NCBI GenBank assembly: GCA_904395785.1
Contig: CAJFOG010000050.1
Coordinates: 1-33,390 of the forward strand
Source of the DNA: an uncultured Eubacterium sp.
Lineage (GTDB): Bacteria > Bacillota_I > Bacilli_A > Erysipelotrichales > Erysipelotrichaceae
Direction: 5' to 3'
DNA: 33,390 bases
Positions 8,446 through 33,390 of the stretch are shown one piece after another. A model generated the notes under the pieces. The model ran no database searches, was not told where the DNA came from, and saw only the letters and a list, made by a program, of their open reading frames with translations. Each line of letters opens with the position of its first letter. The stretch's first letter is position 1. A program made the translations under genes and the position numbers.

Positions 8446-9627
8446 GTGGAGCGATGGATTTCTTTTTTACATCGGAAATTCGATAATTATAGTTTAGAAG
8501 AATATTGTGTTATGATTATTGTATGTACAATTTTTCTTCCATACTATTTTTCTGTATGTTCAATTATTTTCTTCTTATTTTATTTGGCAGTAAAAGGAAA
8601 GTTATTTAAAATTATTCGTGAAGTTTCTAAAGCGTGGTTTGCGATTATCTTTTGTTTAGGAACATCGTTTGTAGCGGTCTGCCATCAAAATTATTTAGGG
8701 GCACTTTGTGGTCTTGTGATATTATGTATTATGATGTTTACGATATATTATCGTACAATTATCAATAAGCGATTATTTGAATTATTAATGGATGCTTGTT
8801 GTATTATATCTTTATTTTGTGTTGTATGGGCAGTGATGGAATATGCGAAAATTGTTGATCAGCTAGGTTTAGATTTTTTCATGTTTGAGATAGAAGATAG
8901 TCCAAAACATCGAGTGAATTCAACATTTTTTAATGCGAATTATTATGCTATGATGATAGAATTTATCGTGTTAATTTGTGTGTATAAAATGATGCAGATG
9001 AAAACAAAAAGAAGAATTATTTTTTATACGATTGTGATTAGTGCTAATTTATTTGCCTTATATTTAACAGGTTGTCGTACTGCATGGATTCCATTTGTTG
9101 TGACAATTCCTCTCATGTTTTTAATGAATATGAGAATGCGCTTTTTTACTGTAAGTATGGGTGCTATTTTAGCAGGTGGAATGAGTATATTGTTTCATCC
9201 ACAGTTGATGCAAAGAACATCAATTTTTGTAGATTTTATGAAACGAGCAAACATATGGAAAACTGCTATATATGGAATCATGGAACATCCTTTATTTGGA
9301 CAAGGTCCACTTACGTATATGCACATTTATAAAACATATCATGGGCATCCAACACAACATGCACATAGTGTATTTTTAGATCCTTTATTAAGTCATGGGA
9401 TTGTATTTGTAGTGATATTTGGTGTATATTTACTAGGAAATATTAAGGAGCACTGGTTATTATTTAGAAGAAAAATCGATATTCGCTTATGTTCGTTATT
9501 TACTGCATTTGTTCTTACCGTGCTGTTACATGGAATGTTGGACTATACGATATATTGGGTACAAACAGCTCAACTATTCTTATTAGTATGTTCTGCAAGT
9601 AGTATGTATTTTAAAAAAAATGTTTAA
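8446..9627 (+). CDS. O-antigen ligase/polymerase (Wzy/WaaL-like) family membrane protein
   Basis: Polytopic; conserved-type segments NSTFFNANYYAMMIE, TGCRTAWIPF, GQGPLTYMHIYKTYHGHPTQHAHSVFLDPLLSHGI. GTG start. Confidence 0.8.
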   Translation: MERWISFLHRKFDNYSLEEYCVMIIVCTIFLPYYFSVCSIIFFLFYLAVKGKLFKIIREVSKAWFAIIFCLGTSFVAVCHQNYLGALCGLVILCIMMFTIYYRTIINKRLFELLMDACCIISLFCVVWAVMEYAKIVDQLGLDFFMFEIEDSPKHRVNSTFFNANYYAMMIEFIVLICVYKMMQMKTKRRIIFYTIVISANLFALYLTGCRTAWIPFVVTIPLMFLMNMRMRFFTVSMGAILAGGMSILFHPQLMQRTSIFVDFMKRANIWKTAIYGIMEHPLFGQGPLTYMHIYKTYHGHPTQHAHSVFLDPLLSHGIVFVVIFGVYLLGNIKEHWLLFRRKIDIRLCSLFTAFVLTVLLHGMLDYTIYWVQTAQLFLLVCSASSMYFKKNV

Positions 9628-12663: not shown

Positions 12664-13743
12664 ATGGAGAGTCTGAAGTATCTTTTAATACCAATGGTAT
12701 TATCAGTAGTTTTAACACCAATTATAAAAGTAATCGCAATACGTTTACAAGTATATGCACAAATGAATGAGCGTACGATACATCAAGGAAAGATAGTGAG
12801 AATTGGTGGTGTAGCAATTTATGTATCATTTTTAATCTGTATGGCATTATTTGTGAAAACTGATATGACAACAAACGGTATTTTAATAGGTGCAAGTATT
12901 ATGTTTTTAGGTGGATTAATTGATGATATGATCAATTTAAAACCATGTTATAAACTATTGTTTGAAGTAGTTGCAGCAGTCGTATTAATTACCATAGGAA
13001 GTGTTTCGTTAGATACAATACGTCTTCCATTTGGAATTGTGATTGACTGGGGGATTGTGTCCTTTATTGTAACATTTATCTGGATTATCGGTATTACCAA
13101 TGCGGTAAATTTAATGGATGGTTTGGATGGTTTAGCAGGTGGTGTGAGTACAATAATTTTAATAGTTATTGCTTGTTTAGCTGTTATGGATGGAAGAATG
13201 GATATTCAAATTATGGCGTTGTTGCTGGCGGGAGCAACGCTTGGATGTTTATTCTTTAATTGGCATCCAGCAAGTATTTTTATTGGAGATTGTGGAGCAT
13301 TATTTTTAGGATTCATTATTTCGGCAATATCATTAAATGGATTCAAAAGTTCTACAATTATGACACTTGCATTACCAATTCTATTATTAATGTTACCTAT
13401 TATAGATACCTTAGGAGCAATTCTAAGAAGAAAATTAAGTGGACATAAATTTTCAGAAGCAGATAAAAAACATATTCATCATTTGTTGATGCAACGTTTT
13501 GGACACCGTAATACAGTAATTATTTTATATATAGTGACTGCATTATTTGGATTTACTGCATATATTTATCTTGTCAATAAAACAACAGGATTATTTGTAT
13601 TATCATTAATAGTACTTGTGGTAGAGGTTTTTATTGAAATAAGCGGAATGATATCAAAACAATATCATCCATTACTTTCTATTGGACGCTTAATGACGAG
13701 GAAAGTTCTACATTGGATTTCAAAACATAAACAGACTCAATAG
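12664..13743 (+). CDS. tagO: Undecaprenyl-phosphate GlcNAc-1-phosphate transferase (TagO/WecA type)
   Basis: GGLIDDMINLKP, NAVNLMDGLDGLAGG, SIFIGDCGALFLGF, HIHHLLMQRFGHRN. Confidence 0.88.
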   Translation: MESLKYLLIPMVLSVVLTPIIKVIAIRLQVYAQMNERTIHQGKIVRIGGVAIYVSFLICMALFVKTDMTTNGILIGASIMFLGGLIDDMINLKPCYKLLFEVVAAVVLITIGSVSLDTIRLPFGIVIDWGIVSFIVTFIWIIGITNAVNLMDGLDGLAGGVSTIILIVIACLAVMDGRMDIQIMALLLAGATLGCLFFNWHPASIFIGDCGALFLGFIISAISLNGFKSSTIMTLALPILLLMLPIIDTLGAILRRKLSGHKFSEADKKHIHHLLMQRFGHRNTVIILYIVTALFGFTAYIYLVNKTTGLFVLSLIVLVVEVFIEISGMISKQYHPLLSIGRLMTRKVLHWISKHKQTQ

Positions 13744-19082: not shown

Positions 19083-19736
19083 TTATCTTTTTGATAAATC
19101 TACTAAATCTTTTGATGTTGTAACTTTTATATTGTTATAACTTCCTTCTACCACCTTGATACGAGTAGATGAATATAATTCAACTAGCATTGCATCATCA
19201 CTTACCAAATTTGGGTTATGTTTTGCTTGTTCATGGCATTTTTTGATAAGTTCTGTTTTAAAAGCTTGTGGTGTTTGAGCACATTGATAGTTACTACGGT
19301 TTGGAGTATGTACAACATACCCATCTTTTACTTCTTTAATCGTATCAATGACTGGTACCATCAATAATGCCGCATCATCATATAATAAAGCTTGTTTTAA
19401 AGCATGAATTTGATCCATTGTAATAAATGGACGTGCACCATCATGAATCATTACATATGTACTAGTTACAGCTTGTAAGCCATTGTAACTACTTTCTTGT
19501 CTTGTAGTTCCTCCTTCTACGTATTGAATCTTTTGGTGTTGTAGATGTTGTGTAAATATTGATTGTTCCTGTTTAGATATAACCATAATAATTTGTTTAC
19601 AATCAATATCTTCTATAAAAGGTTGTACAGTATGTTGAATAACTGTAGTACCATTCATAGGATAAAAAACTTTGTTGTAGTCCAACTTTGTTCGTGTGCC
19701 TTTTCCAGCAGCTACAATAATTACACTATATTTCAT
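19083..19736 (-). CDS. ispD: 2-C-methyl-D-erythritol 4-phosphate cytidylyltransferase (IspD)
   Basis: VIIVAAGKGTR, IHDGARPFI, VPVIDTIKEV, QTPQAFKTELI, SDDAMLVE. Confidence 0.85.
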   Translation of the reverse strand: MKYSVIIVAAGKGTRTKLDYNKVFYPMNGTTVIQHTVQPFIEDIDCKQIIMVISKQEQSIFTQHLQHQKIQYVEGGTTRQESSYNGLQAVTSTYVMIHDGARPFITMDQIHALKQALLYDDAALLMVPVIDTIKEVKDGYVVHTPNRSNYQCAQTPQAFKTELIKKCHEQAKHNPNLVSDDAMLVELYSSTRIKVVEGSYNNIKVTTSKDLVDLSKR

Positions 19737-19880: not shown

Positions 19881-21662
19881 ATGAAACTCTTTACAGTTGG
19901 ACCTGTGATGATGAGAAAAGAAACATTATTAGAATCAGCGACTCAGCTTCCTTATGCAAGAACTGAACAGTTTTCTTATATGATGAAAGATATTGAACAT
20001 ATGTTGAAACAAGTAGTTGATGCAAGAGAAGATGATAAAGTATTTATGATAACGGGAAGTGGCACATGTGCTATGGAAGCCGTTGTATCAAGTTGTTTTG
20101 ATGAACATGACCATGTATTAATTATAGATGGAGGTTCTTTTGGTGAACGTTTTGTTGAGTTATGTGATATTTATCATGTTCCGTATACAAAAGTATCGCT
20201 ATCATTTCAAGAAGCCTTAACGAAACAGCATTTTGATGCTTATAAAAATGAGAGATTTACTGCTATTTTAGTGAATATACATGAAACTTCTACAGGGCAA
20301 TTGTATGATTTATCAATTTTAAAAGAGTTTGCCTTAGAAAAAGGTATTCCTTTAGTTGTAGATGCAATTAGTGCAGTTTTAGCAGATGATATCAGTATGA
20401 AGTTAGATGCATTAGATGTTGTGATTATGAGCTCTCAAAAAGCTTTCGCATTAGCACCAGGTTTATCAATGATTGTAATGAGTGATTCTTTTTTCCAAGC
20501 GTATGCAGCAAAAAAACAACCAAAAACCATGTATTTAAATTTAGTGTCATATGAACAAAATATGAGAAGAGGACAGACCCCATTTACTCCAGCAGTAGGA
20601 ATTGTGATTACGTTATGGCAAAGGTTACAACAAATACTACATGATGGAGTGAAAAAAGAACAGGAAGCTGTTATAGAACGTGCTAAATATTTTCGTAAGT
20701 TGTGTAAGCAGCATGGGTTTCATATACCTGAAACATATCCATTATCTAACGCATTAACCCCTATTTATTTTGTAGATGGATGTGCAAAGGAGATATATCA
20801 ATATTTAGTAGATAAAAAAGGATATTATGTAACACCTTCTGGAGGAGCATTGGCAAATTATTTATTAAGAATTGGGCATATTGGAGAATTAAGTCTTCAT
20901 GACTATGATGCATTAATTGAGGCGATGCTTACCTTTTATACCGAAAAAAGAAAAAAACGTAAAATGATTTTGATGGCTGCTGGTATGGGGACAAGAATAG
21001 CACAAGCTGCGAATGGTCCAAAAAGCTTATTAAAAATCGGTGAAGAACCGTTGATTGAACATACAGTAAAATTATTATTAGAAAATGATTTTGAAGTGCA
21101 TATTGTATTAGGGTATGAAGGAAAAAAAATAAAAGAAGCTTTACAAGCATATCCAGTAATATTCCATGATAATCCATTTTATCGATCTACAAATAGTATT
21201 GCGTCTTTATGGTTTGTGAAAGAGGAATTATTGAGTGGACAAGAAATTTATTTAGCAAATGCAGATGTATACTGGGAACAGGATTTATTGGATCAATTAA
21301 TTGCGTGTGAAAAAGATGTCATGATGTTGATGGATGAAAGACGTAAATTATGTGGAGATTATTTCTTTGGGTGTGAGAATGGATTATTGCGTCATTATGG
21401 AAAAGATTTGAATGAAGATTTACGTAGTGGTGAATATGTAGGAATTGCGAAGGTGCAACCATCTTTTGTGAGAAAATTATATGAACAATTAGAATATTTG
21501 GTGGCTTTAGGTGAATATCAAAAATGGTGGGAAGATGCTTTATATACATTATTAGATACAGAATGTATTCATGTAGAAGATGTATGTGGGAAATTTTGGT
21601 CAGAAATAGATGTGTATGAAGATTATTTACGAATATTATCGTATAAAAACCTTAAGCAATAA
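19881..21662 (+). CDS. Fusion of class-V aminotransferase (PhnW/AEP-transaminase-like) with nucleotidyltransferase (PntC/LicC-like)
   Basis: N-terminal half: LFTVGPVMMRKETL, MITGSGTCAMEAVVSS, SSQKAFALAPGLS (PLP Lys). C-terminal half: MILMAAGMGTRIAQAANGPKSLLKIGEEPLIEHTV, LANADVYWEQDL, FWSEIDVYEDYLRI. One continuous ORF. Confidence 0.85.
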   Translation: MKLFTVGPVMMRKETLLESATQLPYARTEQFSYMMKDIEHMLKQVVDAREDDKVFMITGSGTCAMEAVVSSCFDEHDHVLIIDGGSFGERFVELCDIYHVPYTKVSLSFQEALTKQHFDAYKNERFTAILVNIHETSTGQLYDLSILKEFALEKGIPLVVDAISAVLADDISMKLDALDVVIMSSQKAFALAPGLSMIVMSDSFFQAYAAKKQPKTMYLNLVSYEQNMRRGQTPFTPAVGIVITLWQRLQQILHDGVKKEQEAVIERAKYFRKLCKQHGFHIPETYPLSNALTPIYFVDGCAKEIYQYLVDKKGYYVTPSGGALANYLLRIGHIGELSLHDYDALIEAMLTFYTEKRKKRKMILMAAGMGTRIAQAANGPKSLLKIGEEPLIEHTVKLLLENDFEVHIVLGYEGKKIKEALQAYPVIFHDNPFYRSTNSIASLWFVKEELLSGQEIYLANADVYWEQDLLDQLIACEKDVMMLMDERRKLCGDYFFGCENGLLRHYGKDLNEDLRSGEYVGIAKVQPSFVRKLYEQLEYLVALGEYQKWWEDALYTLLDTECIHVEDVCGKFWSEIDVYEDYLRILSYKNLKQ

Positions 21663-24042: not shown

Positions 24043-24363
24043 ATGAAGAAATGGATTGAGAATGCTGGAGGTTGTATTGTTTCAAAAAATATTATAACAG
24101 GAAAAGGAAAATTGAAGTGGTGTGTGAGAGAAGAATCAATGAATGAAATAGATAATGGATGGAGATTTTTTTCAGATATTGATAATGATGAATTTTTAAG
24201 CAGACTAGATCATATGTGTATATGTGATTTTAATACAGTTGCAAATATAGAGCCAGCAATCCTTTCAATATATGCGTGTGAAGTAGGAACAGATATTGAA
24301 TTGATAGAGAAAGATGGTGAAAAAGTATTTTTAGATAGTACTACAGGAGAAAAATTATATTAA
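24043..24363 (+). CDS. DUF2185 / Imm33-like immunity-type domain protein
   Basis: GGCIVSKNIITGKGKLKWCVREES…DNGWRFFSDIDNDEFL…MCICDFNTVANIEPAILSIY matches the DUF2185/Imm33 pattern. Confidence 0.7.
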   Translation: MKKWIENAGGCIVSKNIITGKGKLKWCVREESMNEIDNGWRFFSDIDNDEFLSRLDHMCICDFNTVANIEPAILSIYACEVGTDIELIEKDGEKVFLDSTTGEKLY

Positions 24364-31977: not shown

Positions 31978-33390
31978 ATGTTTTTAAAAAAAATAATGTT
32001 ATATGGAAAAACATACCCATTGAGTATATATTTATTAAGTATGTTATGTATATTTCTTTTTGTGTATGATAACTATTACTTCAATATTACAAAAACGAAA
32101 TATACATTTTTTGTGTTTTCCACAGTCATTGCGACGTTATGTTACATAATATGTAAAGGAAGACGATGGCTTATTTATAAAAAATGGAACTTACAGTTAT
32201 CAATTGTGGATAAGTGTTTTATGATATGGATAGTTATACAAGTAGTATCAGTTGTATGCTCGTCGTATTTTAAGGAAGCAATTGATGGAAGTCTTGGGCG
32301 AAATACAGGGCTTATTTTTAGCTTGTTATGCGTAAGTGCATATTGGATAGTGTCAAGATCTAAAATATATTTAAAGCATATATGTATGTTATATTTAACA
32401 TCTTGTAGCTTATTACATATCCTTGCCATATTAAATTTTTATTCAATAGATTTACTAGGATTTTATATTAAACTATCGGATTATCAATCTTCATTTTTTA
32501 TTTCCACAACAGGGAATATTAATTTTTATGCATCTATCATTTGTTTAAGCCTACCAATTAGCTGTTACTTATATATTAAGTTACAAAACTATCAGAAGAT
32601 ATTGTTAATTATGAATAGTTTAGGTTTTATGGGATTAATATGTGGAAATAGTGATAGTGGATATTTAGGAATAGGTTGTATGTTTTTAATTTTATTATAT
32701 ATTAGTAGTAGATCTATTCATAACTTTAAAAAATGTATAGTTTTGATAATCATATTTTTGACATGTGGAAAACTATTAAGTATATGTAGTATGTTATTTC
32801 CTATTGCTAGTAGATTATATTATACGTTATCTTCTTTTTTTACAGATAGTATCGGTTCATGGATATTATGGTTACTATTTATATGTATATATTTTATTAT
32901 AGAATTTTATGAGGAAAAGTTATCTTCTTATATGCGATATGTAAGAGTTGGATTAGTTACTTTCTATATTTTTATGTTATGTATATTTGTCTTCTTATTT
33001 ATCTATTTAAGTTTTATAAATACAAATATTCAAATTGGATATTTATCCACATACTTTAGATGGAATGATCATTGGGGAACAGGCAGAGCAAAGGCTTGGA
33101 GAGCATTATGGGAAGTCTTTACAAATTTTTCATATAAACAAAAATTATTTGGTTTTGGACCTGATACAACAAGAGCTATTATGTTTTTAAACTATGGAAA
33201 TGATACTTATTTGGTACAATATGATAATGCGCATAATGAGTATTTACAATATTTAATGACAATAGGGATTGCAGGACTTTGTGGTTATATAAGTATTTTT
33301 TCCACAATGTTTTATCGAATTTATCAATATAAAAATATATTGACAGTTAGAGTAATCGCTATTACAATTACAGTAGGAGCATACTTAATA
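31978..33390 (+). CDS. O-antigen ligase/polymerase family membrane protein, 3' truncated by the window end
   Basis: ATG at 31978 (MFLKKIMLYGKTYPLSIYLLSMLCIFLF…) stays open to 33390 (471 codons). Motif GTGRAKAWRALWEVFTNFSYKQKLFGFGPDTTRAIM…YDNAHNEYLQYLMTIGIAGL. Absent from the ORF track because no stop lies inside the window. Confidence 0.85.
   Translation, partial: MFLKKIMLYGKTYPLSIYLLSMLCIFLFVYDNYYFNITKTKYTFFVFSTVIATLCYIICKGRRWLIYKKWNLQLSIVDKCFMIWIVIQVVSVVCSSYFKEAIDGSLGRNTGLIFSLLCVSAYWIVSRSKIYLKHICMLYLTSCSLLHILAILNFYSIDLLGFYIKLSDYQSSFFISTTGNINFYASIICLSLPISCYLYIKLQNYQKILLIMNSLGFMGLICGNSDSGYLGIGCMFLILLYISSRSIHNFKKCIVLIIIFLTCGKLLSICSMLFPIASRLYYTLSSFFTDSIGSWILWLLFICIYFIIEFYEEKLSSYMRYVRVGLVTFYIFMLCIFVFLFIYLSFINTNIQIGYLSTYFRWNDHWGTGRAKAWRALWEVFTNFSYKQKLFGFGPDTTRAIMFLNYGNDTYLVQYDNAHNEYLQYLMTIGIAGLCGYISIFSTMFYRIYQYKNILTVRVIAITITVGAYLI

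Follow-up and report, generated by a model that had tools for sequence, protein, structure and literature searches.

In Treponema denticola PntC (Tde-PntC), residues Glu104 and Glu196 are positioned to bond the amine of AEP, and LicC has an Asp at both matching positions (PMC6697681). The Campylobacter jejuni enzyme Cj1437 aminates dihydroxyacetone phosphate (DHAP) to (S)-serinol-P for the capsule (PMC11800397); in C. jejuni HS:5, fructose-6-P is first coupled with CTP and then reduced (PMC10918830); and MfGL-II of Mycoplasma fermentans contains phospho-2-amino-1,3-propanediol (PMC3403081). Among the papers searched, none named CDP-serinol or CDP-aminoglycerol, and the sole match for 'phosphoserinol' concerned engineered serinol production.

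The sequence analysed here (the window, that is, the whole stretch of 33,390 nucleotides) encodes an aminotransferase fused to a nucleotidyltransferase (NTase). The reading that we favour, with a probability of about 0.5, is that this fusion is a bifunctional enzyme that supplies the cell surface with a CDP-activated amino-alcohol phosphate, most likely CDP-serinol.

The fusion ORF and its junction

The frame is free of internal stops; the opposite strand of the same stretch is dense in them. The match of both halves to their superfamilies is far beyond chance: Aminotran_5 (PF00266) at aa 26-208 (4.7e-11, 42.7 bits, gathering threshold 21.5) and NTP_transf_3 (PF12804) at aa 363-486 (6.4e-10, 39.9 bits, gathering threshold 27). 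The profiles thus bear out an earlier note on this DNA, which had seen an aminotransferase and a LicC/PntC-type nucleotidyltransferase in one ORF. Foldseek comparison of the predicted fusion structure (mean pLDDT 80.6, pTM 0.53, low confidence at approximately aa 280-340) gave 3f0h as the top match and 6pd2 among the top matches; the pTM and the weak region make the model uninformative on the relative placement of the domains.

Table 1 Features of the fusion ORF and further genes of the window mentioned in the text.
Feature	Coordinates	Strand	Description or basis
Fusion ORF	19881..21662	+	ATG at 19881, stop ends at 21662, 593 aa
Class-V PLP aminotransferase domain, aa 1-350	19881..20930	+	Pfam, PDB 3f0h, SQK motif, tree
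Short basic linker TFYTEKRKKRK, 6-A and 7-A runs	20931..20963	+	Sequence, one-base test
LicC/PntC-like NTP_transf_3 NTase domain, aa 362-593	20964..21659	+	Pfam, PDB, alignments, tree
Fusion stop codon	21660..21662	+	Sequence
IspD	19083..19736	-	221 bits, above cut-off
WecA/TagO-type gene	12664..13743		
Wzy_C (O-antigen ligase/polymerase-like) protein	8446..9627	+	
Wzy_C (O-antigen ligase/polymerase-like) protein	31978..33390	+	
Small Imm33-domain protein	24043..24363	+	

The domain junction reads acc gaa aaa aga aaa aaa cgt aaa ATG, and Met362 of the fusion corresponds in the alignment to the start codon of the NTase genes that stand alone in the relatives. In six relatives' loci (G013, G007, G415, G437, G100 and Fusobacterium vincentii) there are two adjacent genes, overlapping or one base apart; identity to the aminotransferase and NTase halves is 50% and 54% in G013, and 48% and 58% in G007. 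Removal of one A from the 7-A run at 20951-20957 gives an aminotransferase of 361 aa whose TGA overlaps the NTase ATG, and addition of one A gives one of 360 aa with a TAA just before it. Since a single A in either direction restores the two-gene layout, the fusion seems to have arisen from an older arrangement through a change of one base, whether real or artefactual. The "no break" of the earlier note consequently stands for the open frame through 593 aa, but the single chain hangs on one A.

An alternative that touches the architecture only, and that we regard as somewhat unlikely, is that a sequencing artefact, or else a one-base frameshift of very recent date, accounts for the single chain, two proteins serving the same pathway being the functional form. 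The abutting or overlapping genes of the six loci and the stops restored beside the NTase ATG fit this alternative, as does the TAAAATG junction of G013, which is kept in the window, but out of frame. However, A-runs of 7 (20510) and 8 (21122) elsewhere in the ORF stay in frame, and the ribosome-binding sequence (AAGGAGG or AAAGGAGG) that precedes the NTase start in G013 and G007 is gone at the window junction, where an A-rich linker takes its place, as expected if it were no longer needed; both features speak for a real fusion.

Kinship of the two halves and the search for phosphonate genes

The best PDB match of the N-terminal half was 3f0h (1.2e-74), and the SQK motif with Lys187 was invariant in the alignment of the aminotransferases (A1). 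The top NCBIfam match of the fusion, TIGR03301 (PhnW-AepZ), remained below its cut-off (146 bits against 360.8), as did those of the relatives' aminotransferases (131-174 bits); on sequence grounds this match is one of superfamily kinship, not of membership. A tree of 38 aminotransferases placed its 18 PepM-linked AEPTs on one side of a branch with support 100, and the clade of the window enzyme (support 99), which also occurs in Ruminococcus, Fusobacterium and Bacteroides, stood apart from them; the PepM-linked AEPTs were only 23-28% identical to the window aminotransferase. The closest named relative in the searches was an Erysipelotrichaceae MAG, whose locus (L062) is that of G013 by coordinates and sequence.

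The C-terminal half matched LicC first in the PDB (1jyk, 2.6e-12) and then PntC-AEPT (6pd1). The NTase clade of the window had a support of 97/95, apart from LicC and from the Lachnospiraceae PntCs. The diagnostic column of the alignment is that of Glu104 of Tde-PntC: Asn460 in the window NTase (motif ANADV); Asn throughout its clade, including the NTases paired with HisC-like enzymes, and likewise in Fusobacterium vincentii (MNADV); Glu in 17 PepM-linked PntCs of Lachnospiraceae/Clostridia, as in Tde-PntC; Asp (Asp105) in LicC; and His in L060, a diverged PepM-linked NTase, so that Glu is not universal among PepM-linked NTases. The second acidic residue, the Glu of a WWE motif, is kept in the window clade as in Tde-PntC. 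The window NTase is therefore not assigned to LicC, which lies on another branch and whose choline-pocket Asp105 is replaced by Asn, nor to PntC, there being no pepM in the genome and no Glu in the Glu104 column.

Profile searches of the window's genome, a 1.9-Mb MAG, found neither PepM (PF13714, TIGR02320) nor Ppd (TIGR03297), an absence that the earlier note had itself named, together with a lack of CTP:2-AEP activity, as refuting its phosphonate substrate; completeness of 97.6% in 222 contigs leaves a small gap in this absence. Two low-scoring candidates were rejected: a PF13714 match (22.8 bits, below cut-off) within an apparent tRNA-dihydrouridine synthase, and a TIGR03297 match of 18 bits, far below cut-off. 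PepM was also missing from 15 other genomes in which an aminotransferase of this clade lies beside a cytidylyltransferase (G005, G007, G013, G023, G032, G051, G058, G072, G100, G160, G221, G285, G306, G415 and G437; 5/15 are single-contig assemblies). As a positive control, TIGR02320 recovered 8 true PepM (373-424 bits, above cut-off) in 395 genomes of the class, and the PepM search also detected that of G573; of the eight PepM loci of the class, four contain consecutive AEPT, Ppd and PepM genes, and PepM is accompanied by an NTase in the remaining four. Among the three genomes with a HisC-type arrangement (see below), that of Lachnotalea glycerini (G571) encodes a PepM at another place, and none was found in the other two. 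The phosphonate reading of the fusion, judged by the lack of PepM in its own and the 15 other genomes, the separate branch of the aminotransferase and the Asn in place of Glu, is not supported.

Phosphonate tailoring without own synthesis was considered separately. AEP would be imported, the NTase would convert it to CMP-AEP and the aminotransferase would interconvert AEP and phosphonoacetaldehyde. Both halves are distant kin of PhnW/AepZ and PntC, and a PhnS2/T2/U2-like ABC transporter is encoded close to the pair in G007 and, in G013, on the contig that holds the pair, making imported AEP possible there. We nevertheless find this alternative unlikely for the fusion: the AEP-contacting Glu is replaced by Asn, the transporter scores below the NCBIfam cut-offs, no match to its permease was found in the window's genome at E<=1e-20, and in G013 and G028 the transporter shares its operon with another NTase, one fused to an HTH domain (Glu-type in G028), so that it was discarded as a partner of this pair.

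The transporters themselves (L145:1832-6071 in G013, L046:68-4390 in G028, L037:11821-15144 in G007) occur in genomes without PepM; together with the HTH-fused NTase they possibly constitute a salvage route in which imported AEP or a phospho-amine is activated with CTP.

Neighbouring genes and partner swapping

The fusion is surrounded by housekeeping genes in the window, with no surface genes directly adjoining; a WecA/TagO-type gene is found further away (Table 1). The divergent neighbour is a true IspD, a second and different cytidylyltransferase. Other observations in the window were two Wzy_C proteins, each alone among housekeeping genes, and the Imm33-domain protein, located between an ssb-containing block and a block with GdpP-like, ribosomal L9-like and replicative-helicase-like genes. 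There were no matches in the Rfam and tRNA scans of the window, in the viral contig scan or in a first scan of the genome contigs with P0001.

The earlier note was right that the window holds no LicD-type transferase, but the genome itself encodes one LicD, and on contig C106 a teichoic-acid cluster with a true TagD, two TagF-type transferases and transporter genes. The decoration of the cell surface that it had suggested is likely, as most of the relatives' loci are clusters for capsule, LPS or teichoic acid that include LicD or TagF-type transferases. LicD lies within the fetched stretch (7-20 kb) in 10/15 clade loci, and GNATs recur near the pairs. Ruminococcus albus 7 has the order LicD, aminotransferase, TagD-Gfo/Idh, LicD, GNAT, LicD, glycosyltransferase, pyruvyl transferase, flippase; Fusobacterium vincentii SB055 has LicD, aminotransferase and NTase amid glycosyltransferase-like genes; in Bacteroides finegoldii, genes for an LTA-synthase-like protein, a phosphotransferase, a TagF-type (CDP-glycerol glycerophosphotransferase) protein, the aminotransferase and a TagD-like protein stand in a row; and the G013 pair precedes an FrhB-like gene, a pyruvyl transferase and LicD. 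The F. vincentii sequence (NZ_CP084075.1, L146) is filed as a plasmid; at 2.1 Mb, with housekeeping genes and almost unannotated, it is probably a chromosome.

Next to each clade aminotransferase (in G058, one gene away) is either an NTP_transf_3 gene or a gene for a fusion of a TagD-like cytidylyltransferase to a Gfo/Idh domain, and in the aminotransferase tree the partner switches between the two at least 2-3 times, on branches with good support. The TagD-Gfo/Idh fusion is recurrent beside the clade (L039:7848-9143, L043:10792-12117, L147:9094-10368), and no model among the families seen describes it. Its TagD parts reach 87-124 bits on the glycerol-3-phosphate cytidylyltransferase model (cut-off 165), against 178 bits for the stand-alone TagD of the window's genome, and consequently their substrate may differ from that of true TagD. 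The NTase partner varies too: in Galacturonibacter, Lachnotalea glycerini and a Lachnospiraceae MAG, the closest NTases (48-50% identity) each follow a HisC-like aminotransferase (232-261 bits, cut-off 276.6; 163-174 bits on the CobD model), with a GNAT upstream in 3/3 and a PF04464 CDP-glycerol glycerophosphotransferase (TagF) upstream in 2/3 of these loci. HisC acts on an acetol phosphate. By homology, the HisC-like partner would act on compounds of this kind, the simplest of which, DHAP, may be the substrate.

These partners bear on a further alternative, in which CDP-ethanolamine or another small amino-phosphate is made, phosphoethanolamine (or a related amine) arising from glycolaldehyde phosphate and being transferred by LicD. 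Glycolaldehyde phosphate is not known as a common metabolite, which speaks against this route, and the TagD-like partners, the TagF-type neighbours and the HisC-like replacement point instead to a three-carbon, glycerol-like phosphate. The kinship of the NTase to LicC, the LicD neighbours of the relatives and the use of ethanolamine-P beside serinol-P in the C. jejuni capsule (PMC11800397) argue for it, and on balance we hold it to be rather improbable. Ordinary serine/alanine-glyoxylate metabolism, with a housekeeping aminotransferase and an incidental NTase half, is very improbable, for despite the similarity of the aminotransferase half to the BhcA, AGAT and SerC families a cytidylyltransferase is adjacent or one gene away in 15/15 non-window clade members examined, a pairing found equally in F. 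vincentii, R. albus and B. finegoldii.

A proposed CDP-amino-alcohol route and its comparison with known systems

The cytidylyl chemistry, substrate, order of steps and acceptor that we infer for the fusion are as follows. The aminotransferase would aminate a keto-phosphate, most likely DHAP, to serinol phosphate (2-amino-1,3-propanediol phosphate); the NTase would use CTP to attach CMP to it, yielding CDP-serinol, a donor resembling CDP-glycerol; and from this donor phospho-serinol would pass to wall teichoic acid or another glycan through a transferase of LicD or TagF type encoded elsewhere in the genome. The CTP step might also come first and amination second, an order with a parallel in C. 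jejuni HS:5, where activation of the sugar phosphate comes before its reduction.

This CDP-amino-alcohol route is favoured because PepM is absent from 16 genomes in all under a working control; because both halves branch apart from the PepM-linked enzymes, with Asn for Glu; because the NTase exchanges with TagD-Gfo/Idh and the aminotransferase with a HisC-like partner; because LicD is directly beside the aminotransferase in F. vincentii and R. albus; because the genome has its own TagD, TagF cluster and LicD; and because of the precedents of Cj1437 and MfGL-II. Counted against it are the phosphonate substrates of the deeper kin of both halves (PhnW/AepZ and PntC), the AEP-type transporter of some relatives, the lack of surface genes directly beside the fusion, the Glu of WWE shared with Tde-PntC and the His of L060, the incompleteness of the MAG and the PepM of L. 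glycerini. That the product is a CDP-activated amine other than a phosphonate is probable; that it is a serinol derivative specifically falls somewhat short of even odds; a different keto-phosphate, for instance glycolaldehyde phosphate, is also compatible with the evidence. The product is possibly undescribed so far.

More tentatively still, the clade may represent a widespread, unrecognised bacterial route to CDP-serinol or a close CDP-amino-alcohol, from which phospho-serinol would pass onto teichoic acids, capsules and LPS. Its parts would be interchangeable, with aminotransferases of two kinds, cytidylyltransferases of two unrelated kinds and, in some cases, an oxidoreductase or acetyltransferase. 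Here a single chain would carry both core steps, its domains arranged opposite to those of the phosphonate fusion. Annotation by similarity would call the fusion a phosphonate enzyme, with an AEP transaminase as its first half, and the evidence argues otherwise for the whole clade. If the CDP-amino-alcohol reading is true, gut and oral bacteria should carry a so far undescribed surface decoration bearing an amine; the structure 3F0H would gain a candidate function, and the source of 2-amino-1,3-propanediol in the lipids of Mycoplasma fermentans might be explained.

Among the known systems, PntC-AEPT of T. denticola (Tde1415, PDB 6PD1/6PD2) likewise joins an NTP_transf_3 NTase and a class-V aminotransferase in one chain. 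However, its NTase comes first and it lies in a ppm (pepM) neighbourhood (PMC6697681), whereas the window fusion starts with the aminotransferase and has no pepM; similarity is low in both halves, and the AEP-contacting Glu104 corresponds to Asn. A Treponema-order NTase-aminotransferase fusion (L141:6711-8537 in G498, similar in G545; 609 aa with code 4) was observed without PepM, with Glu at the PntC position in G498 (IEGDLY), in small genomes with in-frame TGA. The methionyl-tRNA synthetase MetRS of Mycoplasma penetrans (PDB 9OS7) also carries NTase and AGAT (class-V aminotransferase) domains in one chain, N-terminally, but with the NTase first and fused onto MetRS, the NTase domain having no known function (PMC13215547). 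LicC (CTP:phosphocholine cytidylyltransferase, PDB 1JYK), the best PDB sequence match of the NTase half, differs in its separate branch, in having Asp where the window has Asn, and in not being fused to an aminotransferase. The Eubacterium rectale aminotransferase 3F0H falls inside the window clade, beside a member paired with TagD-Gfo/Idh, and is a single-domain protein with no assigned function, in contrast to the fusion. Finally, the capsule DHAP aminotransferase Cj1437 is likened to the window enzyme by the reaction proposed for the latter (DHAP to serinol-P) and by its surface role; in the Cj1437 pathway serinol-P is amide-linked to glucuronic acid without CTP activation, whereas the route proposed here would use CTP.
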